In this document: positions 35,066 to 53,259 of the stretch, piece after piece
How the letters are laid out: every line of letters begins with the position of its first letter
Position numbering within the stretch: the stretch's first letter is position 1
NCBI GenBank assembly: GCA_950295325.1
Contig: OX485803.1
Location: 29,574,001 to 29,638,000 of the forward strand
DNA: 64,000 nucleotides
DNA from: Polytrichum commune
Taxonomy: Eukaryota > Streptophyta > Polytrichopsida > Polytrichales > Polytrichaceae
Direction: 5' to 3'
Position numbers and translations under genes: made by a program
The notes under the pieces: generated by a model
What the model was told of the DNA's origin: nothing
The model's input: only the letters and a program-made list of their open reading frames with translations
The model's database searches: none

Positions 35066-35076
35066 CACCTTCGATG
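35066..35076 (+). other. left target-site duplication CACCTTCGATG (11 bp)
   Basis: Identical, same orientation, to 51,841-51,851, immediately outside the terminal inverted repeats. Confidence 0.85.
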
Positions 35077-35123
35077 GAGGAAAGTTAGTATGCGAGCGGA
35101 GAGCGGCGATTTGGAGAGCGGAG
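35077..35123 (+). repeat. left terminal inverted repeat of the 16.76-kb element
   Basis: Contains GTATGCGAGCGG followed by repeated GAGAGCGG heptamer-like units. Confidence 0.85.
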
Positions 35124-36307
35124 AACTCCATTTGAGACATGAATTGAGAGGGGAAATGCACCTATAACCGTGAGATTATGGGTTTAGGGTAGAGCTATTT
35201 TAAGAAAATTTTATGAGTTAGGGTCTCTATTACCGTGGAAATAGAACAACATTTCCCCATTTGAAACGTTTACATATTTTTGAAACATATATATATTATA
35301 ATAAAATAAAAAATTAGGGCTTACATCACTATTACGTCATAAATACAATTACCAAACTTGTGTACTATAGTACATATCACTGTAAATCAAATAAAAATTA
35401 CTATATGAAGGAAACACGAAGGAGGTATGTGAAAAGAATTCCCCACATATAGTCCACTATATTAATGTTACACCTATAAATGTTAACCCTTTGTAATTGT
35501 TAACTTTATTCTACTCCCCACATATTGCACACTTTTAAATTTGACTCTATATATGTTAACGAATGAAATGCAACCATAACTACTCTTTGGAAAGACTACG
35601 TTTGGCTACGTTTAGTTCTAGTGACGGAAGTGTAAGAATGGAGGCACATGAGAACTTCCATTAGAAGGTACATGGAAACACGTTCATGTGGGTGTCCAAG
35701 TATGTGGGTTTGTTGGTGCAAATTGAGAAATATTTGCAAGTTGTGCATGCCCATGATTCATACTTCACCCGTGATTTGTAAACTTGATATTGAATAAAGT
35801 TTTGATTGGGTTTGCAATTTTATGAATGGTATTCTCTCACAAGGACTCTTCAAAAATGCTTATATTTATAAATGTTAAGATTTGTATATTGGTCGATAAA
35901 ACAATTTTATAATTGGTAACTGTTAACACGTTAATAAATGTTAACTATGATCGTTTCCTGAGGGTTAACATTTGAGGGTGAACATTATAGAAAGTGTTGT
36001 GTGGTGTGCAACTTAAGTATTATTGAGTATTTATGATTTAGTGAAACAAGGAGGAGGTGTGTGAGGCACCAACTTTATATTTGAATGGGTGGATGCTACA
36101 TTAGTGGTTAAGATTGTGAGAGGCATACCGTTTAGGGATACTTGAACTATACTTAAGGGCTAATCCACAAACTAAAAATATTTACAATAATAATTGAAAA
36201 ATGCAATGCGGGTTGACATTATGGGAATGAAATAAAGAAGAGCAAGTATGAGACTTGCGCCGGAAATCTAAAAGCCAAAAATAATACAATCCAATACAAA
36301 ATGGAGT
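35124..36307. other. subterminal non-coding region of the element
   Basis: AT-rich with no supported frame; probably holds the 3' end of the minus-strand gene. Confidence 0.4.
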
Positions 36308-36505
36308 TCAAGGAATAAACTCATCCTCACTCTCCGAAGCACTTTGATCTATGTATCTAAGTACTCTTGGATCGTATCTCTCACGTGGACTAGAAGAGGC
36401 ACTAGAGCTATGGGAGGATTATTTGGCATAAGCTACTGCCATATCCTCGGCATAAGAAGGAAGTCGCATGGTAGGACTAGTCGGCGAGCCGAAGTATTGA
36501 TCCAT
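36308..36505 (-). pseudogene. probable last exon of the methyltransferase gene
   Basis: The minus strand reads MDQYFGSPTSPTMRLPSYAE, then AVAYAK, an in-frame TAA (36,421-36,419), then SSHSSSASSSPRERYDPRVL and an acidic end SASESEDEFIP. Composition matches a serine-rich acidic tail. The preceding exon ends near CTAT|GTGAGTAAG, a strong donor, but I could not place a consistent acceptor, so the joint is unproven. Confidence 0.4.
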
Positions 36506-37624
36506 CAGATTGCACCAACAGAGGAGAAACTACGATTGTTAGAATACTTCCAATCAAATGCAACATACTCAACATTAAGTTTAAGATGACAACAAACTTA
36601 CTCACATAGATTAACTGCACCCTGTTGAGGGAGGGCATCGTCGTCGTCCTCGCCAAGGTCTACAACGTGAGTTGGATCGACCCCTAGAGACTCCGAGGCT
36701 GCGACCTGTATTGGGTGCAAAATTTCTTCGTACAATTCCTTGTCTCCCTCAAGTGCCACTATTGCCATGTTAGTAGATTGTGCTGCAAGAACCGAGGCAC
36801 CTACAAAGAGCAAAACAAATGAATTAGTAGAAGGTGATTGAATTGCCTAAGTCTAGAGGCATGGGAATGTTACACAAATTACTCATACCAGTTCCAGCAG
36901 TGAGGTCACATATAATCCCACCTGGAGGGCTAAGGCCACTGATTAGAAGCTGGAGCAGGGACACTGCCTTCTCTTTAGGGCCCCTCCAGAATGTGTCACC
37001 GTCGTTGCGCTTGAGTGCAGTATCAGAGGTGACAATGTTGAAAATAACGTCATCATTTGCAAGGTCAACATCTTCAAATTTGTCACTGGAAGAAATAACA
37101 AACTCCTTGGGTGGCCTAAGCAAAGGTGTGGAGAAAGATCGAACCAACACGATTGCTTTGAATTTCAGAGTTTGGACATCAAACATAGGCCTCGAATTGT
37201 TAGCAATGTGATTGAAAGTATGAATGACTTCGAACTTGAAGAGTGGGAAATGGCTACAATTACTCACCCGCTTAGAGTTATGCATAGGGTGAGTGAGGTG
37301 TAGAGAATTAACGATGGTCCATTCCTCCTTGACCTCCAAGTTGTTGTTGTAGAGAAAGCTCAAGACCTCCTTCTTGATTTGCACACTGTCAGGATAAAAT
37401 AAGAGGAGTGCGCCATCGTCGTGAAGATAGCCCTGACAAAAACCAATGGTGAACTTGATAAAGTTCTGAACCTGCTTACTCCAATTTGGAACTTGCCCCG
37501 GGAATTCAGAAACTCCTGGGACAGGCAAACCATCAGGATACTCTGCAATGACGAGGTCCACCGCAGCCTTATGCAATACCTTGCCGGAGAAGAAGAATTC
37601 CCTGGATGCTCCAACCTAAAAAGA

Positions 37625-39230
37625 AAAAACCCGTGAACGGCATATCTCGAGAGGGTGCCGTCAACAAAAAATTTGATTTTCATTACCATATCAAGCATCC
37701 TAATATGACCATTAACCAAGAATTAAATGAACGTAGCGGGTCCACCTATATGACCAACCTGAAATTTCTAACCATATTCGGTCATCCTAAACCTATTAGT
37801 GCATATCCAGGCCATATATGAGCACCAAAAAAATAAAAAAAAAAGTCTCCCGAGGGGGGTGCCGTTAACGGCAACTCTCGGGGGCACCACATATTAACCT
37901 CAAAATCTTATATTTATGAATGTATTATGCATCCTAATATGACCATTAACCAAGCTTTAAATGACCGTAACAGGTCCGAATATATGACCAACCTGAAATT
38001 TCTAGCCATATTGACTTATCCTCAACCTTAGAGTGCATAAACATGCCATATTCAAGCACCAAAAAAATAAAAATAAAACCCCCGAGGGGGGTGCCGTTAA
38101 CGGCACCTCTTGGGGGCACCACATTATAACCTCAAAATCTGATATTTATGAGTATATTATGCATCCTTATATGACCTTCAACCAAGACCAAAATCAACTT
38201 AAGGGAGTCCGAATATATGATGCACTTGAAATTTATGGCCATATTGACTCATCCTCAACCTTACAGTGTGTAGACAGGCCATTTTCAAGCACCAAAAAAT
38301 TCAAAAAAAAGACCCCCGAGGGGGGTGCCGTTAACGGCACCTATCGGGGGCAGCACATTATAACCTCAAAATTTGATATTTATGAGTATATTGTGCATCC
38401 TTATATGATCTACAACCAAGACCAACATCAACTTAGGGGGGTCCGAATATATGACCAACGAGCAATTTCTAGCCATATTGACTTACTCTCAACCTTAGAG
38501 TGCATAAACAGGCCATTTTCAAGCACCAAAAAAACCAAAAATAAAACCCCCGAGGGGGGTGCTGTTAACGGCACCTCTCGGGGGCACCACATTATATCCT
38601 CACAATCTGATATTTATGAGTATATTATGCATCCTTATATGACCTTCAACCAAGACCAAAATCAACTTAAGGGGGTCCGAATATATAACCAACCAACAAT
38701 TTCTAGCCATATTGACTTACCCTCAACCTAAGAGTGCATAAACATGCCATTTTCAAGCACCAAAAACATAAAAAAAAAGAGCCCCCGAGGGGGGTGCCGT
38801 TAACGACACCTCTCGGGGGCACCACATTATAACCTCAAAATCAGATATTTATGAGTATATTATGCATCCTTATATGACCTTCAACCAAGACCAACATCAA
38901 TTTAAGGGGGTCCGAGTATATGACCCACCTAAAATTTCTGGCCATATTGACTTAGCCTCAACCTTAGAGTGCATAAACAGGCCATTTTGAAGCACCAAAA
39001 AAATTAAAAAAAAAACCCCCCAAGGGGGTGCCGTTAACGGCACCTCTCGGGGGCAAGACATTATAACCTGAAATTTCTAACTATATTGAGTCATCCTTAA
39101 CCATATAGGGCATAACCAGGCCATTTACAAGCACCAGATAAATTTTAAAAAAGTCATCCGAGGGGGGTGCCTTTAACGGCACCTCTTGGGGGCACCACAT
39201 TATAACCTTAAAATGAGATTTTCATTTGCA
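37625..39230 (+). repeat. palindrome tandem array 1 (234-bp unit), filling intron 5
   Basis: About seven units plus a truncated one. Palindrome centres lie near 38,098, 38,332, 38,566, 38,801 and 39,035, giving a period of 234-235 bp. Each unit has CCCCCGAG, a run of G, the 16-bp palindrome GTGCCGTTAACGGCAC (sometimes one base changed) and TCTCGGGGG, forming a dyad of about 38 bp. A more variable body follows, with CTGATATTTATGAGTATATT and GGCCATTTTCAAGCACC blocks. It occupies nearly the whole intron between 39,329 and 37,618. Confidence 0.92.
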
Positions 39231-41929
39231 TATTAAACATCCTAAGCAGACCATGGCGTTAAGGGAAGATGCATTTGGTGAATAGAGGAAGGTGAGCCGA
39301 ATTGAATGGGAATTAAACAAAATATTTACCTCATTGAAAAAAACAACCATGTCATCGTAAGTTGAAGGGAATTTGTTGTGCTTTGTCTTATAATCTAACA
39401 TCCTGTGGAATGAGTCATTAAGTAAAAGAACCCGAGGAGAAGCAGAGGAGGAGTTGTATGCCTGGGATGAAGACATTGTATTGACAGCAGGTGGGATGAA
39501 TCTGATGGGATTGGATTCACCAGCAACTCCTAGGTGAATACGCTTTAGAGCAGGTTCCCGCGGAGTATGTGAGATAAGAGGGTCCGCAAGTGAATCATGT
39601 TGATCACCGATATCCTCTGTTACTTGAATATCTTCGTCCATTGGCTCCTCAACCACCTCAGCAGCCTTCCGCTTAGATACCTGAGGCCTACTCCCTGTAG
39701 TAGTTGTCTTTCTTTTGGAGGAGCCACCCATAGGAGGTGTAGGAGACTGTGAGACAGGAACTGATGCGGCGGGAGAAGGTAAGAGAGGTTGGATGGAGTC
39801 CCTGAGTGCGATGTCAAATGGAGGAGGCTTCTTGAACAGACAGTCCAAATACCATCCGCACTGTTGAAAATGGATTGGATACCATGTCCTTATAATTGCA
39901 GTAGTGAACATGGAATCAGGGCTTTCGATATCCAGGTAGTTAGGGAAGAAAACGGGTACCTTAGATATGGCCTTCCTCGGCAGGAGAACGTATCGAAAGT
40001 ACCTGTAAAGGACCCTGCGGATAGCTTGAACGAAGAAAGGTTGCTTGTCCGGGGGGTTGTTCTTGTAAGCGCCATTATCTCCACCTAATTCAACAAAGAA
40101 TGCAATCTCCCAAAGTTGACACCTCATAGCCTCCACGTAATCGAAAATAGTTAGGATCGGATCTTCGCCATGGGGATTATAGTCAACAACTTCTCCAAGA
40201 TCTATGAGAACACCCGAGAAGAGCTCCTCAGCCTCCACCGCAATCTGATGCCATGCGCAATTAGATATAGTATGAAAGGTTAAGGTTGATTTCCATAGCT
40301 CATTACTGGATATGCAAATGACAACATGAACTTTGAGATGAATGCTCACCTGCGCCCACCATGTTGCACGATTAAGCCATTCCAGGAACTTGGAGTCGGC
40401 GAAGGCAGTCTTGGAAAAGCGATGCGCATCCCGGATTGCCGCAGAGGAGTTCCACCTCTGGAGCCACTTAACCATCATTCTTGAAGGCATCGTTGAAGTA
40501 GCTAGCATATACAATTTCTTTTGAAGCATCTCAGGTTCATCAAACTTTTCATAATGAGCCTTCACTTCCTCTAGAAAAGCAGGAGTTAATTTGGGATCCG
40601 CGACAGGCAAATGCTTCCTGAGCTCCGCGACAGGCTTATCCTCCACCTTCTTCACAGCTTTCCTAACCCATTCCTCTGCATTACGCTCCATCCAATTGCT
40701 AGAATCTTGGTTCTTCATCTTGTACTTGTCCTCAGCGGCATGGGCAGCTTTTGCAATCTCTTGCTATAGGTCAAACAAACAATACAATCAGTTACATGAA
40801 TTACATATGCATAATTCAAATGACACGATAATATTAGAGGTTGAGATAACCTGGTAAAGGACCGCATTGAGACCTTCAACGGTGAGGGTGAATCATGTGC
40901 GATGTTTCCCAGCCTGCTTCTTCCTTGCAGCCTCCAACATAGTCGGAGATACTAAACCCTCAAAGTAGGACAGTGGCTGGGGTGCTAGATTCTGTATGCG
41001 AAATAGCTTGTGAACTAGGTTGGTGGTGACGTGTGATTTTTGATTCTTCCTGGAAAACCAAAATATATATTAGAATGATGCATGACTAAAAGCAAAATTC
41101 AAAAACAGAGATTATGATCTTACCAATTAACTTTGTGCAGAGCGGCTATCACGGATGGAACGTCTCCTCTAGGTTCAAGGATTACATCCTCAACACAGAA
41201 ATGCCAATTAATATCATGAGTGTGAAATTGCTCAATGATAGGCATCCATGCTTGAAGCCGATGGTTCCCATCCCAAACCATGAACATCTTATTAGATAAT
41301 ATCTTCAAATCGTCATCTGTAAGAAGCTTCTTCTCAAATTCGTCATTCACATCCTTCCACTCCGAAGACCACTTGGCAACCACATTGGGTGTCACGTCAT
41401 TGGTGTGTCCATGGTGGTCCTCCAATGCCACATAAAAGAAACCACACCCCTCTATGTAACCATCAATCATAAAATGAGTAGCAAGTTGAGATACATCATT
41501 TTTAAGAAACGGTCTCACAACAGGAAGAGGCATCATGCAACAAAGAGGGATAAAGAGACGACCCTTTTGTTTTGGTTGCCATTTAAGTTTCTCAAGCCTA
41601 GATGCGGTTGGAACGCTCTCCTTAATGGCAAGGTCGTGAAGCTTGAATTTCAACTGTCCATCTGTAAGGCGGACTTCATCTGAACAAAGGTCTCAGCATC
41701 AAAATACATTAGAAGTGATAAGGACTTGTCCTTAACTCCAAACAATTGAACTAAAACGCACTCCAAAACCTTAAAATCAAATCAATAACCAAAACTTGAA
41801 GCTTCATAATCAAACAAAGAAAAAAAACCCATTAAGGGCCACCTGTAAGCGCAACGACAAACCTCAAACCATATTCAGTCATACTAAGCCATACTCAGTT
41901 ATCCTAATGTATAGAGTACATAAACATGC

Positions 41930-44730
41930 CATATACAAGCAACAAAACAATAAAAAAAAATACCCCCGAGGGGTGCCGTTAACGGCACCTCTCAGGGGCA
42001 CCACATTATAACCTCAAAATCTAATATTTATGAATATATTATGCATCTTTATATGACCTTCAACCAATACTAAAATCAACTTAAAGGGGTCCGAGTATAT
42101 AACCCACCTGAAAATTCTAGCCATATTGACTCATCCTCAACCTTACAGTGTGTAGACAGGCCATATTCAAGCACCAAAAAAATAAAAAATAAAAGCCCCC
42201 GAGAGGGGTGCCGTTAACGGCACCCCTCGGGGGCACCACATTTTATCCACACAATCTGATATTTATGAATATATTATACATCCTTATATGACCTTCAACC
42301 AAGACCAAAATCAACTTAAGGGGGTCCGAGTATATGACCCACCTGCAATTTCTGGTCATATTGACTTAGCCTCAACCTTAGAATGCATAAACAGGCCATT
42401 TTCAAGCACCAAAAAAATAAATAAAAAAACACCCAAAGGGGATGCCGTTAACGGCACCCCTCAGGGGCACCACATTATTTTTTATTTTTTTAAATTTTTT
42501 TAAAAAAAAGAGCCCCCGAGGGGGGTGCCGTTAACGGCACCTCTTGAGGGCACCACAGTTTATCCTTACAATTTGATATTTATGAGTATATTATGCATCC
42601 TTATATGACCTTCAATCAAGACCAAAATGAACTTAAGGGGGTCCGAATATATAAGCCACCTGAAAATTCTAGCCATATTGACTCATCCTCAACCTTACAG
42701 TGTGTAGACAGGCCATATTCAAGCACCATAAAAATAAAAATAAAAGCCCCCGAGGGGGGTGCCGTAAACGGCACCCCTTGGGGGCACCACATTTTATCCT
42801 CACAATCTGATATTTATGAATATATTATGCATCCTTATATGACCTTCAACCAAGACCAAAACCAACTTAAGGGGGTCCGAATATATGACCCACCTGCAAT
42901 TTCTGGTCATATTGACCTAGCCTCAACCTTAGAATGTATAAATAGGCCATTTTCAAGCACCAAAAAAAAAAAAAAAAGACACCCAAAGGGGGTGCCGTTA
43001 ACGGCACCCCTCGGGGGCACCACATTAAAAAAAAAATTAAAAAAAAAAAAAAAAACCCCCGAGGGGTGTGCCGTTAACGGCACCTCTCGGGGGCACCACA
43101 TTATATCCTCAAAATCTGATATTTATGAGTATATTGTGCATTTTTATATGACGTTCAACCAAGACCAAAATCAACTTAAGGGGGTCCGAATATATGACCC
43201 ACCTGCAATTTCTGGCCATATTGACTTAGCCTCAACCGTAGAGTGCATAAAGAGGCCATTTTCAAGCACCAAAAAAATAAAAAAGAAGACCCCCATTGGG
43301 GGTGCCGTTAACGGCACCCCTCTGGGGCACCACATTACAACCTCAAAATCTGATATTTATGAGTATATTGTGCATCCTTATATGACCTTCAACCAAGACC
43401 AAAATCAACTTAAGGGGGTCCGAGTATATGACCCACCTAAAGTTTCTGGCCATATTGACTTACCCTCAACCTTAGAGTGCATAAACATGCCATTTTCAAG
43501 TACCCAAAGAATATAAAAAAAGACCCCCACAGGGGATGCCGTTAACGGCACCTCTCGGGGGCACCACATTACAACCTCAAAATCTGATATTTATGAATAT
43601 ATTGTGCATCCTTATATGACCTTCAACCAAGACCAAAATCAACTTAAGGGGGTCCGAGTATATGACCTACCTGCAATTTCTAACCATATTGACTTACCCT
43701 CAATCTTAGAGTGCATAAATATGCCATTTTCAAGCACTAAAAAATAAAAAGAAGACCCCCAAAGGGGGTGCCGTTAACGGCACCTCTCGGGGGCACCACA
43801 TTACAACCTCAAAATCTGATATTTATGAATATATTGTGCATCTTTATATGACCTTCAACCAAGACCAAAATCAACTTAACGGGGTCCGAGTATATGACCC
43901 ACCTGCAATTTCTAGGCATATTGACTTACCCTCAACCTTAGAGTGCATAAACATGCCATTTTTAAGCACCAGAAAAATTTAAAAAATGACCCCCAAAGGG
44001 GGTGCCGTTAACGGCACCCCTCGGGGGCACCACTTTATATCCTCACAATCTGATATTTATGAGTATATTATAGATCCTTATTTGATCCTTAAGGGGGTCC
44101 GAGTATATGACCCACCTAAAATTTCTAGCCATATTGACTCATCCTCAACGTTACAGTGTGTAGACAGGCCATTTTCAAGCACCAAAAAAATAAAAATAAA
44201 ACCCCCCGAGGGGGGTGCCGTTAACGGCACCTCTTGGGGGCACCACTTTATATCCTGACAATCTGATATTTATGAGTATATTATGCATCCTTATATGACC
44301 TTCAACCAAGACCAAAATCAACTTAAGGGGGTCCGAGTATATGACCCACCTGCAATTTCTGGCCATATTGACTTACCCTCAACCTTAGAGTGCATAAACA
44401 TGCCATTATCAAGCACCAAAATAATCAAAAAATAAACCCCCGAGGGGGGTGCCGTTAACGGCACCTCTCGGGGGCACCACATTACAAACTCAACATCTGA
44501 TATTTATGAGTATATTGTGCATTCTTATATGACCTTCAACCAAGACCAATATCAACTTAAGGGGGTCCGAATATATGACCCACCTAAAATTTCTAGCCAT
44601 ATTGACTCATCCTCAACCTTACAGTGTGTAGACAGGCCATTTTCAAACACCAAAAAAATAAAAATAAAGCCCTCGAGGGGGGTGCCGTTAGCGGCACCTC
44701 TCGTGGGCACCACATTCTATCCTCACAATC
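41930..44730 (+). repeat. palindrome tandem array 2 (234-bp unit), filling most of intron 1
   Basis: About fourteen copies of the same palindrome unit as array 1 (centres near 41,980, 42,215, 42,449 and onward to 44,690). In two places (42,449 to 42,532; 43,000 to 43,075) two palindromes are only about 75-85 bp apart because the unit body is missing, yet both palindromes are kept. It lies in the 3.5-kb intron 1 (45,212-41,680) of the minus-strand gene. Confidence 0.92.
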
Positions 44731-45212
44731 TGAACTTCACAAGCATATCAAACATCATGTTATATCCTTCAACCAAAACCAAGTTGAACTTAGGGGGTCC
44801 GAATATATGAACCTGAGTCTCCGCTGGACACTTCGGGTTCCATCCTCGGCCTCCAAATCCTACCTCACCTTACAATCAAACCCTCAACAACAAAACCCTT
44901 CCACACCCTCGGGGGCACCCTAGAGCTCCAAAAGATTCCCTCAATTTTCAAAGTTGACTTCACTCCTTGGCTTTACCTTCAAACCTTAAACCCGTAAACC
45001 TTTGGACCCACTCGGGTGCACCCTAGGGTTCTAGAAAGATTCCCTCAATATCGAAATTTGACTGCACTACTAAACCATACAATCACTTCCGGAGGGGTGC
45101 CCTTGACGGGTCCTATTCTTTGGCTACTCTAAGCCCACCACTTTTTGGGCTAACTTCTATTCCGCGTCTAAATTCTTTCAAAATTGTCAAGTTTAGGGTC
45201 CGAGGAACCAAC
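44731..45212 (-). other. 5' end of intron 1, non-repeat part
   Basis: Degenerate tail of the array, then sequence with two similar CTCGGGGGCACCC/CTCGGGTGCACCC blocks (about 44,909 and 45,010). The donor is at 45,212-45,211 (GAAG|GTTGGT). Confidence 0.5.
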
Positions 45213-45552
45213 CTTCTGGTTCCATCAAGCTCGTCTCTTCAACCTCTTCCTCGCCACTCTCCTCCTGCGATGCTGGATTGGATGCGGGATTGGACTCTGT
45301 CCCCACATCCTTTGATGCTTCTCGACATTGTGATCCTGGGCTCTTGGATTTTGATGGACCCAGAGATTCGTCTATCGTCGATAATGTTCCGTTCTCCTCA
45401 GTGTCGTCAAAATCTAAAATTTTGTTAATTCCACTAGTGTCATATGTTTTAGGCGCCACCTTCTTCCTCCCCATCCTGCTCGACTTCAATTTCTTAGTGC
45501 TACTGAAATATAACTTCCCTCTCTTCTTTCTCCTCTTGATAGGGGCCTGCAT

Positions 45553-45829
45553 GTCACGTGTCACCCTTCCTGTGCATGTCTACTCCAACACTCGCAAACC
45601 CTCCCGTCAATCAAACACGTCTTACGCCTCTCATGAAATTCATAACTTTTGACACTAAGTGAAAGGATATGAGTTTCACGAAATCTAAGACAAGACTTTC
45701 CAGGTGTGACATTCATTTATTTAATGCCTAATTGGTATTTCATTATACTTCCTATTCCTGTCCTGAAACGTCATGCCTAATTATGATTTCAGGCTTTATA
45801 TCGGCGCCAACTAATAATATGTAATTGCC
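45553..45829. other. divergent intergenic region of the element
   Basis: Between the start of the minus-strand gene (ATG at 45,552) and the first plus-strand upstream module; likely promoter area for the minus gene. No defined box seen. Confidence 0.4.
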
Positions 45830-46020
45830 TGTCAAGTAGTATGTCTACCATGACTTGTACTCTCTTATTTTGTATATCGTGACAGCGTTACAAATTTTAA
45901 AAATATTAATGTTACTCTCGTTTAGAGTACCTCCGTCATGTGGAGCTTGTGCATCGCAGTTCTCTTTTGGCAGCACATTCCTAATAAATAGGTAGCCCAC
46001 AATGTTGAGATTCCTCTTTC
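45830..46020 (+). promoter_or_regulatory. duplicated upstream module, copy 1 (TATA-like AATAAATAGG)
   Basis: Contains GTCAAGTAGTATGTCTACC and ATATCGTGACAGC, then AATAAATAGG (45,983-45,992) followed by CCCACAATGTTGAGA. The same modules recur in order before the next gene (46,738-46,950). Lies about 200 bp upstream of the ATG at 46,211, fitting a core promoter plus 5' leader. Confidence 0.6.
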
Positions 46021-46210
46021 ATATTTCTATTGTAATACATTCTAATCCTTCATGCTACAGTTTGTCACAATTTACATAAATACATATTGACTCTATATTG
46101 ATCTAACAGGTTATCAAATATTCTAAGTGCATTGGTGTCTACCCTAAGTGTATATAATACCCGATTACTTGTACCCATTCCTTCATGTAATCTACTCATA
46201 TTCTTCTCAA

Positions 46211-46630
46211 ATGGGTACTGACGCAAGTCCCCCCAACCTTCCTCCGTCAGGTGCTCCTAGTTCCTCTGGAATTCACACCAAGTTGACCATCGATGGTTCT
46301 TCAGACGTCAACATCATTAAGATTGCCAACCCACGTGACTGCTCAGTTCCTCCGGCTGTCGTCGTTCACACTTCTCAACCACATACTCCATCTTTGCAGG
46401 CAGATGTTGCAACGCTGAAAGAGGACAAGTCTACTTTACAAACTCATGCCTATTCTAGAGCAGGGGTTATTAAACCGGGCACTTACTCTAGATCCCTGTT
46501 TAGGAATGCCAAAGGTCAGAAACTCGATTGCGCAGCATGCACTGCAGTTCATAGTTTGGGGATTGACCATTGTCATAAACATGACGGTGACAAATATGGC
46601 AAAGGGCCCCATAAGCGTATTCGTCGTTAA
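46211..46630 (+). CDS. small Pro/Ser-rich protein with a C-terminal Cys/His cluster (139 aa)
   Basis: Starts MGTDASPPNLPPSG and has a disordered Pro/Ser/Thr N-terminal half. The C-terminus holds LDCAACTAVHSLGIDHCHK, a C-x2-C ... H-x-C-x-H arrangement that could bind one metal ion, and ends in a basic KGPHKRIRR that may act as a nuclear signal. The frame is intact and has its own upstream module, so it is likely an accessory gene of the transposon. No family recognised; function unknown. Confidence 0.5.
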   Translation: MGTDASPPNLPPSGAPSSSGIHTKLTIDGSSDVNIIKIANPRDCSVPPAVVVHTSQPHTPSLQADVATLKEDKSTLQTHAYSRAGVIKPGTYSRSLFRNAKGQKLDCAACTAVHSLGIDHCHKHDGDKYGKGPHKRIRR

Positions 46631-46737
46631 TAACAATGTTGCATTCTAATGTTTGGAATTTCCTATTCATGAGGTACTATCATGTTCAGTATATATGCAT
46701 GTTATTGGATTCTACTATTTGAAAATAAATACTATCT

Positions 46738-46960
46738 TGTCAAGTAGAATGTCTACCATGACTTGACTGATATAATTTGGTATATCTTGACAGCCTTTCT
46801 GCTCCCTTTCAGACTCCTTGGTTTAGGGTGGATCATTTTTAGAAGTATTTATTCATGCTTTCCTTCATTGTTCATCCGTCATTTGGATCTGTCCATCATT
46901 GTTGTCTTTGGCCATTCATTTCCAATAAATAGGTTTCCCACAATGTTGAGAAACCTCTTC
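46738..46960 (+). promoter_or_regulatory. duplicated upstream module, copy 2 (TATA-like AATAAATAGG)
   Basis: Repeats the copy 1 modules: GTCAAGTAGAATGTCTACC, ATATCTTGACAGC, then AATAAATAGG (46,923-46,932) with CCCACAATGTTGAGA. Spacing to the next ATG (47,000) is about 70 bp. Confidence 0.6.
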
Positions 46961-46999
46961 CATATTTCCATCACCGCGCAAGGCCTCATTCCCCTCATC

Positions 47000-47569
47000 A
47001 TGGCTCATGTGCCTGCTAACGGAGAAGTCGGTATGGCAATCCTCAGAGCCGATGGAGAGAGAGTCCCACTTACCTTTTGCATGGATGACAACGGACTAGC
47101 TTACGTGACGTCCCAACGTCTAAGTATTCGGTTCGGTTTCAGAGCGGACACTATTGTTGTTGACGAGGATATTTTTGATGTTGTCACGTCTGAGCTTACA
47201 CATACCCTAGGTCGCATTTCGCATCGTGATGAGAACAATAACATGTTTTGGACTCTTCATCCAGGTAGTTACCGAGTCTATGGCCTCACTGAATCTCAGA
47301 TGGCTGCTTCTACTGAGATCCTCACTCCTCGCTCTTCCTCTACCTGCACCATTCAAACTCCTCTGCCACGTGATGTGAAGGTCAAGCTTGAACCCGGTCT
47401 CGAGACGCCTATTGTAGACAACTCTAGAGTAGAATCTGTAATTACACTTTCTTCAGATGACGAGGTCAGTCCCACCAAGCCCCCGCCTCAGGTTATAGTT
47501 GGTGGGGACGCTCCTAAAGTATATCCTTTGTCGCAAGATACTGTTAGCATAGTACCATTATTAAAATAA
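47000..47569 (+). CDS. acidic protein with SUMO-interacting motif; separate gene or transposase N-terminus
   Basis: Opens MAHVPANGEVGMAILRADGE and has a compact alpha/beta-looking part to about residue 95, then a Ser/Thr/Pro linker. The linker contains VKLEP, a consensus sumoylation site (hydrophobic-K-x-E), and VITLSSDDE, a classic SUMO-interacting motif (hydrophobic core, serines, acidic tail). A possible donor (AAA|GTATAT at 47,519) and acceptors at 47,576 or 47,611 could splice it to the transposase frame, but the phases I tried do not join cleanly. It is therefore either the first exon of the transposase, damaged at the junction, or an independent gene of up to 190 aa. Confidence 0.5.
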   Translation: MAHVPANGEVGMAILRADGERVPLTFCMDDNGLAYVTSQRLSIRFGFRADTIVVDEDIFDVVTSELTHTLGRISHRDENNNMFWTLHPGSYRVYGLTESQMAASTEILTPRSSSTCTIQTPLPRDVKVKLEPGLETPIVDNSRVESVITLSSDDEVSPTKPPPQVIVGGDAPKVYPLSQDTVSIVPLLK

Positions 47570-50376
47570 CTTGCAGCAATGCCGGGAAAAAAAACATTCT
47601 TAAAAAAATAGACTACTCGGTGATTAGACACGAGAGGGTAGAGTACCTTCCTGCTCTGTTCGATGGTGCTGTCATCTTTGAGTTGCCACCTGTTGGTCAT
47701 ACGGCCGCACGGTCACATGCCAAGTCTATGCAAGGAATGGACAAACGTTACGACGGCCATGTGTGGACCAAGACCATCACCACCAACACCAACATCACAA
47801 ACAACATTGGTTTGTCCTTCCGTTCTTCCTCCTGCGTTGGACACCTGCGTTGCAAGAACAAGGAGTGCAAATATCTGATCCGCCGACCTCGTATTTTCGA
47901 AGTCAACGAGACAGAGTTTGAAGGTTGTACCCTCCAAGCCTTTGTAGTGGATCAAGCACCCCCAACTGACTCTACGCTTGTTTGCAAGGTGTGTAAAGAA
48001 CCCCCGACATGTATTGCTACATGTGGGGCTAAGATTTATTATGTTGTTGGCAAAATCAACCATACAAGAGCGTGTATCCATCTTGGAATTCACGATCACC
48101 CAGTCAAGGTGGGCGACTACAGAGACACTAAGGCTGAGATCAGTGGCCTAATTGAAGAACAGATCGAGAAGACTCCCCAGGCTACCAGGAGTGCGGTTGT
48201 GTTGGAGGCTAGCAAAGTTCTAATTGGCAGTTATCTCCTTCAACCCGATGACGCGCCAACAAAGAAGCTTTCTCTTGAGGAACTTGTTCCAGTATTCGAC
48301 CGGTGCAAGGACATGGCTTCCCCAAACATCCGCAACAAGGTCATGAGCTTCCGTTTCCTCAGAAGGTATGGTGTCATAGACTCTATCACCAAACTCCGTG
48401 GAATTAGTTTATGGGCATTTGTGCAGGAGAACAAATTCCCAGGTCAAGGGGCAGATCTTGACAAGGTTTTTGTCTTTAAGATGTCGGAAGTCGGGCCTGG
48501 TAGTGGGGTAGACTTGGTGAAGCGTATGCAGCCCGGCGAAGATCTGGAGAATGCTTGGATTATGTTCGACCATGTGAAACGGGTGAGACAGTGGACCACA
48601 ATGGCATGCCACATGTATGACTCCACGTATTGTCGTGTCATGACCATTGCAAGCTGTGACATGCAATCGGAGGACTGTGATGCCCAGATCGTTTTATGGA
48701 AGAATCTCAATGCTGTGATGGAGAGGAATGACGTTGTCGATACCAACTTCAAGGGTTTCATGGCCGACAGCGCCCAGGCCAATTGGAATGCAGTTCGGGT
48801 CATATATGGCAACAGGAAGAAGGAGGACCGCATGGATGACCGGGAAAGAACCTGTCAGTTTCACTGGACCCAATCTATGGTTAAGTATACCGAGAAATAC
48901 ATCCCCGAAGAACTCTGGGAGCAACACAAGAAGATGTGCCACCAATATAGGACCGCCAGGACCATGGACGAAGCGGAGAACCTGTACCACGGGCTACGTG
49001 CATGGTGGGTATCCGCCGGGGCAGTGACAGAGAAGGCACTTGACAAACTCGAGCTCTGGCTTGCATTCTGGCACTTCCGTTATCGCCAATGGGGAGGCTT
49101 CATGACCGGGGTATGTTCACCCTAAACTTGTTGTTTTTTTTCTTTCTTTTCACTCTAATATGAAACAACTCTTCTCCAATTTCTAATTGCTTACACTATG
49201 TGCACGCAGAAATTTACAGTAGAAGAACTAGCAGAAATGCCTTCATGTAATCTCGCCGAATCAATACACAACTAGTGGCTTCAATCGTCTGGAAACAACG
49301 GTGGCGACCTCTATGTTGCTACAGTGGACGACTTTGTTTGAGGCTTCCTTCAGGTTGTCAATTACTACCAGTTCCTGAAAGGTGATGTTGGCGGTACAGG
49401 CCCTACAAAGAAAGAGCTCAAGCTAAGGTTGGCAGAGCGTAGGGCGAAGCAAACGGGTAATCCTTTAGTCCTCGAAGACCCCATGATGGACATGCCTGAA
49501 GCAGAAGAGTTCTGTACCCGGGTGCCTTATATGGCTGGGGAAGAGGTGTTCGGGTCCACGAAGCGCAAAGCAGATCTACCTCTTGGAGCAGAAGAGGAGT
49601 CGCACAGACCTGATAAGGTCAACTTCTCACATCCCCGTGCCTCTAGTAGGGCTGTCCGGACTCGTTCCACTGACATGCCCATAATTGTTGAAGAGGAAGA
49701 TTCTAATGTCCCGGAAGTTGCACCCCCGGCGCCACATGCGGACGATATCGTCCCGTCCCCCATCCCCGTGGGACGGATCAGCCACGTCACTGCCGTCGAG
49801 GAGACTAGGGTGAACGTGAAGGAGTGGCACATCGCTCGGTTGCCAAAGACTTCTGCCAAATGTTGTTGGGCACAGAGAGCCGTCACCAAAAAGAAGTGTA
49901 CTGAGAGAATCGTAAGGGGTGCAAAATCAACCCCTGCCCCTACGTACACCGGTCTATGGCACAGCACTAGGAGAAATGTGAAAGAGACCACAGAGTTTTT
50001 CTTCTGCTCAGATGATATCCATAGGTGCGTTAAGGGTAGCAGGCGCAAATGGGTTGTTCAATACTCTGCGGAATAGGAGAGGCCAAGCATTCCGGATGTT
50101 TGGCCAGTGAAACTTGGGACTAACCTCAAGCAATGTGAGATCCTGGCCCTCGAGGCGGCCGGATTCCAACTGCCGCAGAAAGTGCCAGTCTCACCCAGAA
50201 GGCTCTTTTCCACTGCACCGTCTCCGGCAAATTTAGACTCCGTGCTGGTGCCAGCAGATGCAGACAGGTATCCTGGGAAGAGAGAAGGGAAGCTCGTTAA
50301 GCCCACCGCAACCCGTCCAAACCCTCAGCAGCGGTTATCCATGGGCTCTGCGGACTCCCTCAAAGCTCAACTCCGC

Positions 50377-50966
50377 CCCGGGTACGCAACTCCCGTATTA
50401 TATGGTCCTGATTATAATCACTTATAATGCGTTTTAGTCCAATATTGAGTGATACAATTTGTTTTAATGTAGGAAACCCTTGTAGCCCTTCTAACAAGGA
50501 ATCCAAAAATGTAATTATATATAGGAAATGAATATATTTTGAAGCATATAATTGCATTAAAAACCTAATTATATGAATTTTTTTAATACAGGTACCATAG
50601 GTCAAACTACCCAACTTTTTGGACTTTTTAATAAAAATTTAACATTGTGAATGAATTATAATTTTAATGGGAGGCAACTATTCGTGGCTTATAATTTTAA
50701 TGGGAGGCTTAATAAATATGCAACCCAACTTTTTTTTCATCTCATTTATTTAATTTGGTCTTCACCCAACTTTTTTTTCATCTCATTTTATTTAATTTGG
50801 TCTTTACCCAAATTTTTTTTCATCTCATTTTATTTAATTTGGTCTTCACCCAACTTTTTGATCATTTTAATTTGATATAATTTGATATAATTTTTACAAA
50901 AGCCGTCCTCTAAGCCGTTTTAAGTACGATGCCCCCTGCGTATAATATGGGAGTTGCGTACCCGGG
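50377..50966. mobile_element. nested 590-bp TIR element in the transposase gene, 8-bp TSD AACTCCGC
   Basis: Left end CCCGGGTACGCAACTCCC and right end GGGAGTTGCGTACCCGGG are perfect inverted repeats; pairing extends to about 26 bp with one mismatch. The direct repeats AACTCCGC lie at 50,369-50,376 and 50,967-50,974. No coding capacity, so a MITE. It is younger than the host transposon copy. Not similar in sequence to the MITEs at 11.2 and 31.7 kb. Confidence 0.92.
50724..50860 (+). repeat. tandem repeat inside the nested MITE, ~44-bp unit, three copies
   Basis: Repeats CCCAA(C/A)TTTTTTTTCATC followed by TTTATTTAATTTGGTCTT. Confidence 0.8.
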
Positions 50967-51292
50967 AACTCCGCTCGGTGACGATGATTCCTCACCCTGG
51001 CCATGGCTGCATCATTGCGCTAGACTCGATGACGCCACCCGACGTGACACAATACCACATCACCATCAGTTCCCTCCCGGGTTGCACCTGCCCTGCATTC
51101 AAGAAGACAATGACCAACTTTCGAGGGCGGAGTCAATTCTCGTATTGCAAGCATGTTTACTATATTTTTTTAAAGGTCTGCCATCGCAATCCTGATGTAG
51201 ACCTTTTCATCCACGCGCCAACCTTCAGCTTCAACGAGGTCAAAGTTATTCTCGAGAGTGGAATTTTAACTCACCCTTTAGATCGGGCCTAG

Positions 51293-51780
51293 GATTTACT
51301 CTAAGTGTCCCTTTCTCCCATCAACATGATAGATGAAGTAGTGCCTATTCATCCATGTTTCTAATAGAGTACACCATAGACTAAGTGATATAAGATTTTC
51401 ATTGAATAATTAAATATTGTCAGCTCAAAAATATAATAAATATAATCCCATGGATTATTTTTATTCAGCTCAAAAAGTTGGATTACAATACTCAACCGTA
51501 TCATGTGTCTCTATACATATTGGGATCATCATTGGTTTTCATCATCTACTTAATTATTATATCATAATTTTACGATCATTTTGGCACTTCACGGTTCTCA
51601 AACTAAATCAGACCATTTCAAATTCAGGGCATTTATTTTATTTAGTGCCCACACATTCCACGGAAATAGGTCCCAACAATTTTCTATTTTTGGTAGAATC
51701 TGGAATATTCTAATTATATTCTTTTACTATTTTTAGGGAATTCTAAATTTAATGCAGAATCTATCCTATTTTTACCACAT
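51293..51780. other. 3' region of the transposase gene and subterminal DNA
   Basis: AT-rich; nothing further recognisable before the right TIR. Confidence 0.4.
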
Positions 51781-51840
51781 TTCCGCTCTCCGCTCTCCAA
51801 ATCGCCGCTCTCCGCTCACCGCTCGCATACAAGCCTCGTC
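51781..51840 (-). repeat. right terminal inverted repeat of the 16.76-kb element
   Basis: Contains CTCCAAATCGCCGCTCTCCG and CCGCTCGCATAC, inverse of the left TIR with a 7-bp insertion. Confidence 0.85.
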
Positions 51841-51851
51841 CACCTTCGATG
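51841..51851 (+). other. right target-site duplication CACCTTCGATG (11 bp)
   Basis: Exact direct copy of 35,066-35,076. Confidence 0.85.
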
Positions 51852-52440: not shown

Positions 52441-52872
52441 TCACTTCTTGTTTGATTCGTGCCCTGGCGGCAGGGTGAAAACTTTGTCGAAATCGCAACC
52501 CATGTAATAGGTATCACCATCCACATGCTCGACATACTCATCCCAGTCTCCAAAATTTTCATACCTCCGAATCTCCTCCAATGTGCACATTGTCTTGAGC
52601 GTCCTCACATTGTACACTTTTGCAAATTTCATGACTCGGCTAAAATCGGATCCATCCAAAAACTGCAAGCTAAACATCTCATTGTCGAGATAACTCTTGA
52701 AAATCTCTAGCGCAGGTGGGAGCACGTCATTGCGAACGACGATGGCGTAGATCCCTCGGTCGTGGATCATCAACTTTGGGATCTCAACACGCTTGCCATC
52801 CTCCTTCCGGTAGATGTGTTGCCCATCTTGCGCTGCCTCTAGGAAGTTTTGAAGGTACTTCGATTCCTTCAC
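52441..52872 (-). CDS. orphan terminal exon, unrecognised protein (~143 aa)
   Basis: Open from a plausible acceptor (CATCAG|GTGAAG at 52,873) to a stop at 52,441. The product reads ESKYLQNFLEAAQDG, then IPKLMIHDRGIYAIVVRNDV, LPPALEIFKSYLD and GDWDEYVEHVDGDTYYMGCD. Balanced composition and an absence of stops suggest a genuine exon. No motif identifies a family. Upstream exons would lie at higher coordinates; candidates are at 53,504-53,708 and 55,554-55,684, but I cannot connect them. Confidence 0.4.
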   Translation of the reverse strand: MKESKYLQNFLEAAQDGQHIYRKEDGKRVEIPKLMIHDRGIYAIVVRNDVLPPALEIFKSYLDNEMFSLQFLDGSDFSRVMKFAKVYNVRTLKTMCTLEEIRRYENFGDWDEYVEHVDGDTYYMGCDFDKVFTLPPGHESNKK

Positions 52873-53259
52873 CTGATGAATTTTGCAAATTGGAAAGAAC
52901 ACTCATAAGGTAACATGGAGTTGGTGGAAGAACTAGTACTCTCTACTTGGATGAGTGACCAAATATGAAAAGAGGAAGGCAACATAATCGTAAGAGCCAA
53001 GCGATTTCATAGACAATTCTTTTCCCAAGATTAATACAACAAAACATATTTAAACCACCCGTAATTGATGATCCTCCCATGGCTGCATGACCACTACACC
53101 CTAGAATATACATGTCTCACCTTGCCATTGGCATAACTAAATACTAACCTCTCAGATACCCAAAATTCAATGGATTAGGTGCCTAATACAACTCATAGTA
53201 GGGCTCCTTGCATCCACGCACACTTATTGAATATTACAAACTACTAAAAGTACATGGAA
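52873..53259. other. spacer, no gene seen
   Basis: Nothing recognisable. Confidence 0.3.

Follow-up and report, generated by a model that had tools for sequence, protein, structure and literature searches.

The VANDAL elements of Arabidopsis provide the precedent for an element-encoded protein that can drive an arms race against host silencing. The VANC protein of VANDAL21 is reported to bind a short motif in fast-changing tandem repeats, which also lie within the introns of VANC21 and VANB21 (PMC5735166), and to strip DNA methylation from its own VANDAL family (PMC5735166, PMC10398659). MULE target site duplications span 8-11 bp, and some members of the VANDAL clade do have terminal inverted repeats (PMC6446971). 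Other mobile elements encode enzymes that act on epigenetic marks, including TET/JBP proteins in fungal DNA transposons and SET genes in MuDR elements of Phytophthora (PMC12730594).

Here, we describe an element of Polytrichum commune that lies within a 64,000-nucleotide stretch of DNA (C1:29574001-29638000, hereafter the window). It shares with VANDAL and Hiun elements a transposase of predicted MULE type, accessory genes, and tandem repeats in introns that differ between related elements (PMC5735166, PMC10398659), but it possesses clear terminal inverted repeats where VANDAL elements are defined by absent or degenerate ones, a target duplication of 10 bp, palindromic units of 234 bp, and an accessory gene whose product has a predicted methyltransferase fold. 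The element may work like a VANDAL, a likeness drawn from layout. The TET/JBP- and SET-bearing transposons likewise carry an enzyme for epigenetic marks, although the class of enzyme and the hosts differ, as do the transposases of the TET/JBP elements (PMC12730594). Retrotransposons of dinoflagellates and charophytes also encode a DNA methyltransferase, but theirs are C5-cytosine enzymes (PMC5890265), whereas the fold predicted here is of the N6/N4 type and resides in a DNA transposon. A virus-integrated Mariner similarly combines a transposase with a methyltransferase in a DNA transposon; it differs in its Mariner transposase, in its methyltransferase families, and in having a separate endonuclease gene (PMC3627910). 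The same presumed pair of domains is found in phage ParB-CTPase/N6_N4-MTase fusions and in a Bacillus ParB-methylase, but these are prokaryotic, while the gene described here is spliced, has a long middle region, and contains a ParB-like part without HMM support (PMC12704722, PMC5512222). Finally, Kaonashi (KIU) MULEs are also multi-gene elements with a conserved enzyme-like accessory gene, one that encodes a Ulp1 domain in elements of the non-TIR kind (PMC13317346). The literature covered, consisting of parts of papers and few subscription titles, reports no MULE with an N6/N4-type methyltransferase and no cassette exchange of the kind suggested below.

Results

Borders and copies of the element

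The element spans positions 35077-51841 of the window (16,765 bp), and its borders were fixed by alignment with 11 other complete copies (Table 1). As had been claimed in a preliminary description of this DNA, inverted repeats are present at both ends; they are clear, as in MULEs, extend over ~50-60 bp, and share as their core a 31-nt perfect inverted repeat. The left terminus is 5'-GGGGAAAGTTAGTATGCGAGCGG, which reads GAGG... in the window copy, and the right terminus is ...CCGCTCGCATACAAGCCTCGTCC-3'; the number of GAGAGCGG-like units in the left repeat differs among copies. The preliminary description had also placed an exact 11-bp target duplication around a unit at 35077..51840. The sequence CACCTTCGATG is indeed identical at each end, but its 11th matching base, the C at 51841, is the last base of the element proper, and the true duplication is therefore 10 bp, which falls inside the 8-11 bp range of MULEs. 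The left border at 35077 was retained by the 11-copy comparison, while the right border is 51841.

Table 1. Features of the element and its flanks in the window (positions are those of the whole 64,000-nucleotide stretch)
Feature	Position	Strand	Remarks
Left target site duplication, ACCTTCGATG	35067..35076	.	Borders from 11 other copies
Left terminal inverted repeat	35077..35128	+	Perfect 31-nt core, 35094-35124
Spliced ParB-like/methyltransferase gene (predicted)	36606..45552	-	Splice model with fitting phases; modelled exons 45552-45213, 41679-41124, 41049-40851, 40763-40350, 40244-39330, 37615-36889, 36800-36606; 3' end beyond the model
Methyltransferase exon (predicted)	36889..37615	-	Motif IV variant AEYPDG; motif I DLTAGTG
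234-bp repeat array bearing the palindrome GGTGCCGTTAACGGCACC	37688..39214	+	In modelled intron
ParB/Srx-like exon	41124..41679	-	WDGNHRLQAW motif; assignment at motif level only
Second array, identical 234-bp repeat type	41919..44810	+	In first modelled intron
Putative promoter-like segments, two copies	45816..46971 (45816-46030, 46724-46971)	+	77-82% alike where aligned
Small ORF, 139 aa	46211..46630	+	Ahead of transposase gene
MULE-type transposase gene (predicted)	46943..50376	+	Intron 49111-49209; probably extends past nested insertion
Nested 590-bp insertion, foreign to the family element	50377..50966	.	Inverted ends; 8-bp duplication AACTCCGC
Right terminal inverted repeat	51784..51841	-	Sequence and copy comparison; perfect core 51787-51817
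Right target site duplication, ACCTTCGATG	51842..51851	.	Copy comparison

The entire genome (407.8 Mb, 64 contigs) was searched with each end. With the left end as query, 40 of the 128 candidates were scored and yielded 40 matches; with the right end, 40 of 392 were scored and yielded 42 matches. Most full-length end matches begin or stop at one common border. The tip pattern GTATGCGAGCGGWGAG occurs at 201 places in the genome with at most one mismatch, as opposed to 14 for a reversed control. Pairing of the ends, a search that the preliminary description had called for, revealed 11 further complete copies of 7.8-17.9 kb each on five contigs. The 10-bp duplication is perfect in eight of these 11, each with a different sequence, matches at nine of ten bases in one, and is absent from the two copies at C1 28.16 Mb and at C3 47.68 Mb. 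One copy, at C6 23.90 Mb, is inserted within a high-copy repeat. A query made of both its flanks joined by a single 10-mer had 262 candidate places in this genome, of which 40 were scored; every one of the 40 matched over 159-160 of the 160 bases at 94-99%. These are uninterrupted paralogous sites for this copy, indicating that the unit inserted with a target duplication. The 11 full copies, of which nine have duplications of their own, and the empty sites for one of the copies uphold the earlier view that everything between the ends is one mobile unit.

Gene content of the window copy

The element consists of two divergent gene blocks, with the transposase on the right in the plus orientation and the ParB-like/methyltransferase gene on the left in the minus orientation. 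Scans of the transposase with Pfam and NCBIfam yielded no domain, including no match to the Pfam MULE model. Its predicted structure resembles the catalytic domain of IS256-family transposases, with a weaker structural match to the GCM zinc finger. The IS256-like prediction, in combination with the 10-bp duplication, supports the assignment of the transposase as MULE-type, in agreement with the preliminary description of a MULE-type element with its transposase inside. The candidate promoter-like segments sit ahead of each plus-strand gene, the small ORF and the transposase, and the DNA of the 139-aa ORF is present in those copies that keep the region.

In the window copy, the transposase gene shifts frame near 47.57 kb and contains in-frame stops. 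It is further disrupted by the nested insertion, whose flanking segments directly adjoin in all 11 other copies. The ParB-like/methyltransferase gene contains an in-frame stop and has lost a splice acceptor. Judged by these lesions in both genes, the window copy is dead. Other copies retain open frames across the parts examined.

The ParB-like/methyltransferase gene was compared with possible homologues using exon-sized protein queries; the complete spliced product of 977 aa had retrieved no homologue, probably because the comparison was confined to proteins of similar length. In the methyltransferase exon, motif IV precedes motif I, the order of the beta class, and a lineage B relative (see below) has Foldseek and VIA matches to CcrM, M.BceJIV, MboIIA, and M1.HpyAVI. 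The exon contains a further short in-frame intron, and it is the acceptor of this intron that is lost in the window copy. The predicted model, which has a mean pLDDT of 49 with a core of 70-86, points to a DNA-methyltransferase fold of the beta class, in which the catalytic motif is unusual. The fold is matched by N4-cytosine and METTL3-type enzymes as well and is compatible with more than one target base. The catalytic motif of beta-class N6A and N4C enzymes is (D/N/S)PP(Y/F/W). At this position 35 of 36 aligned rows have x-x-P-[DE] and one has EYRD, none has DPPY, and three rows contain a [DNS]PP[YFW] tetrapeptide at other places. With x-x-P-[DE] in place of DPPY in nearly all rows, catalytic activity may be absent. 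Several methyltransferase lineages retain a motif I loop of the DxTAGTG type.

The ParB-like exon is characterized by a DGNHR-type motif only; the Pfam ParB_N model does not match it, and there is a weak match to DUF1015 (E 0.21). Across the genome the ParB_N model matched four places (C10, C12, C23), none of them within elements, while 11 of 14 control genomes were positive. Searches with the exon gave no convincing PDB relative, and its phage matches were at chance level only. Of 131 genes, 71 have the ParB-like exon on the 5' side of the methyltransferase exon, a count based on 150 of 158 methyltransferase and 150 of 151 ParB-like matches, with a random control that used guessed lengths for three contigs. 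No TET/JBP dioxygenase was detected by Pfam in the nine ORFs and three spliced pieces scanned, and Rfam and tRNA scans of the sequence gave nothing.

Methyltransferase lineages accompany closely related transposases

A methyltransferase gene is located within 30 kb upstream at 52 of the 61 scored transposase loci (2396 candidates) and is divergent from the transposase in all 52 pairings; in a few of these the two genes are separated by 18-26 kb and may simply be neighbours. Along with 158 matches to methyltransferase relatives, obtained from 150 of 1446 candidates in the genome, this rules out a single exceptional copy with cargo. The preliminary description had considered the methyltransferase cargo unusual. 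The accessory gene is present as it stated, but recurs at most family loci and is not peculiar to this copy.

Four lineages of the methyltransferase were distinguished at the 61 transposase loci: A, that of the window, at 23, B at 21, C at four, and D at four, with none found at nine. Typing was by hand, lineage A comprising 62 places from which relatives under about 77% identity were excluded and lineages B, C, and D coming from a separate search. The methyltransferases of lineages A and B are 29% identical to each other, and those of lineages C and D are identical to P0237 (lineage B) at 46-49% and, across part of the domain, at 42-43%, respectively. The identity of the transposases to a single reference transposase, P0001, is 84-95% (median 92) beside lineage A, 90-95% (median 93) beside B, 91-92% beside D, and 74-76% beside C. 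The transposase and methyltransferase genes thus seem to be differently descended. Because transposases of 84-95% identity accompany three very different methyltransferase lineages, the comparison, which uses identities to one reference and not trees, suggests that the left block has been exchanged between elements with nearly one transposase. An initial comparison of tips and methyltransferases, covering 71 of the listed methyltransferase matches and the tips on C1 through part of C6, had given the impression that young copies lack the methyltransferase; this was wrong, as young copies carry lineage B, which is absent from the matches to the lineage A query.

Palindromic arrays within the accessory gene

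The methyltransferase gene and the palindrome arrays, both assigned to the mobile unit in the preliminary description, do lie inside it, and the palindromes are within the modelled introns of that gene. The 12 copies contain 147 units of the 234-bp repeat, 3 to 22 each, in uniform orientation. The palindrome is the best conserved stretch of the unit (0.973 vs 0.912 elsewhere), and compensatory changes in it are nearly absent. A 22-mer with the palindrome occurs at 296 places in the genome (at most one mismatch) and a reversed control at none. The palindrome matches listed are exact and cover C1, C2, and the first 36.5 Mb of C3; they were compared with the lineage A and B places from C1 to C3. 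Among the matches listed, the palindrome is confined to the vicinity of lineage A, each of the 100 places lying within 20 kb of a lineage A exon. In this range, 15 of the 17 lineage A loci with at least 95% identity have the palindrome, as opposed to none of 13 more diverged A loci and none of 22 lineage B loci. This confinement to near-identical lineage A loci indicates that the gene and its arrays move as one and diverge in parallel, a link that is partly built in because the arrays lie inside introns of the exchanged gene.

Selection and decay

Comparison between subfamilies revealed purifying selection on the methyltransferase gene, with dS undefined for two distant pairs and a value of 0.31 for one further distant pair. 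When copies within the window's own family are compared, the dN/dS values are 0.48 (methyltransferase exon), 0.50 (transposase), and 0.79 (middle exon). A set of 23 methyltransferase exon copies shows 141 differences from its consensus, 99 of which are C to T or G to A, and the rate of decay is highest at CHG (3.1%), followed by CG (1.5%) and CHH (1.0%). This pattern fits plant-type cytosine methylation of silenced copies. The genome also has 58 matches to the chlorophyll a/b-binding family, on contigs C1, C2, and C4 to C7, which marks the host as photosynthetic and probably a green plant.

Discussion

We propose, with a probability of roughly 0.55, that the window contains a dead copy of a large MULE-type family whose protein counters silencing or marks the family's copies, and in which the exchange of cassettes shifts specificity. 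The ParB-like/methyltransferase protein would bind or modify the DNA of the element that encodes it, with the palindromic arrays as its probable site of action, and would in this way either counter host silencing or mark its own copies. If the cassette is exchanged as a whole, gene together with arrays, specificity would change with it, in parallel to VANC and the target repeats of the VANDAL elements. Binding, modification, and anti-silencing are inferred by analogy, as the proposal of self-recognition is based on a layout similar to that of VANDAL21 and on a methyltransferase-fold protein in the accessory gene. Several observations weigh against it: the x-x-P-[DE] motif, the lack of a ParB_N match, and the low confidence of the predicted model; the dN/dS values within the window's family; the nine transposase loci at which no such gene was found; and the near-absence of compensatory changes in the palindrome. 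The association of palindrome and lineage may also simply reflect the position of the arrays inside the exchanged gene. More doubtful is the stronger proposition that the family carries an exchangeable, element-encoded DNA modification, in which a protein with a non-canonical motif is combined with cassette-specific intron arrays and swaps reset the specificity.

The foremost alternative, which we regard as rather less than an even chance, is that catalysis has been lost and that the protein is a VANC-like sequence-specific binder which clears silencing marks from its own arrays. Catalytically dead methyltransferase partners exist, METTL14 being one example, and the x-x-P-[DE] reading of motif IV in 35 of 36 rows would be in keeping with such a role. 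The position of the arrays in modelled introns of the accessory gene recalls the VANC targets in the introns of VANC21 and VANB21 (PMC5735166). Weighing against a protein that only binds are the retention of motif I across several lineages and the conservation of the motif IV change, a combination that fits an altered rather than a lost activity.

It is improbable, though less so than the alternatives that follow, that the gene encodes a selfish pair resembling a restriction-modification system, in which a ParB-like nuclease or nickase and a protecting methyltransferase penalise competitors. The Bacillus ParB-methylase has nicking endonuclease activity (PMC5512222), ParB/N6_N4-MTase fusions occur in phages (PMC12704722), and exchange of lineages would alter the specificity of such a pair; the nuclease part, however, depends on a ParB assignment at the level of a motif alone. 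We consider it very unlikely that a host gene has been captured as passive cargo. MULEs often capture host sequence, and Pack-MULEs have been described (PMC6431247), but a captured passenger is difficult to reconcile with a constant orientation at 52 of 61 loci, purifying selection between subfamilies, and 158 matches among scored candidates; moreover, Pack-MULEs are non-autonomous and carry host gene fragments, whereas this family encodes a transposase and a recurrent accessory gene. That the repeats and the 11-mer are a product of chance or misassembly and do not bound a single unit can be dismissed almost entirely, given eleven full copies on five contigs with identical borders, nine with their own duplications, the excess of the tip pattern over its reversed control, and empty sites at 40 of 40 scored places for one copy.

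Distinctive of this family, which we favor as one whose protein counters silencing or marks its own copies, are a constrained gene with a predicted methyltransferase fold, a catalytic motif that is odd yet conserved, and indications that entire cassettes have moved between elements. If true, the cassette swaps would resemble bacterial restriction-modification systems and VANC/target pairs in changing specificity. The family may therefore bear on the diversification of transposon self-recognition, and it offers a testable system for element-encoded DNA modification and for N6/N4-type methylation in its host.

Internal organization of the element

The right part of the 16,765-bp transposon carries a nested insertion bounded by inverted ends (CCCGGGTACGCAACTCCC...) and an 8-bp duplication, AACTCCGC. 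Between the two divergent genes of the element lies a small ORF of 139 amino acids, and a promoter-like segment that includes a TATA-like AATAAATAGG is present in two copies, which precede both plus-strand genes. Immediately to the right of the element is a 153-amino-acid ORF with no Pfam match at E ≤ 0.1.

Coordinates of features in and beside transposon copies
Feature	Location	Strand	Size
Small ORF	window 46211-46630		139 aa
Promoter-like segment, first copy	window 45816-46030
Promoter-like segment, second copy	window 46724-46971
Nested insertion	window 50377-50966		590 bp
ORF right of element	window 52441-52902		153 aa
ParB-like exon, right flank of the 28.24 Mb copy	L015:95-535 (sequence containing that flank)	minus

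Elsewhere in the genome

Pairs of element ends spaced 34 and 44 kb apart, at C1:22.240-22.274 Mb and C3:36.641-36.685 Mb of the assembly, are perhaps elements with large nested insertions. The ParB-like exon flanking the C1 28.24 Mb copy is 41% identical, and a divergent relative therefore adjoins that copy. Pfam ParB_N matches within the assembly are confined to long open frames on contigs C10, C12 and C23, which possibly represent bacterial contamination. Chlorophyll a/b-binding matches of equal score (n = 14) are clustered at C5:1.75-1.85 Mb; weaker ones, perhaps ELIP-like, lie at C2:29.4-30.9 Mb.

Decay of copies

Across the segment of the methyltransferase exon at window 36890-37576 and 22 other copies, C>T and G>A changes accounted for most of the decay, and CHG sites were hit hardest. 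This pattern is likely the trace of cytosine methylation by the host.
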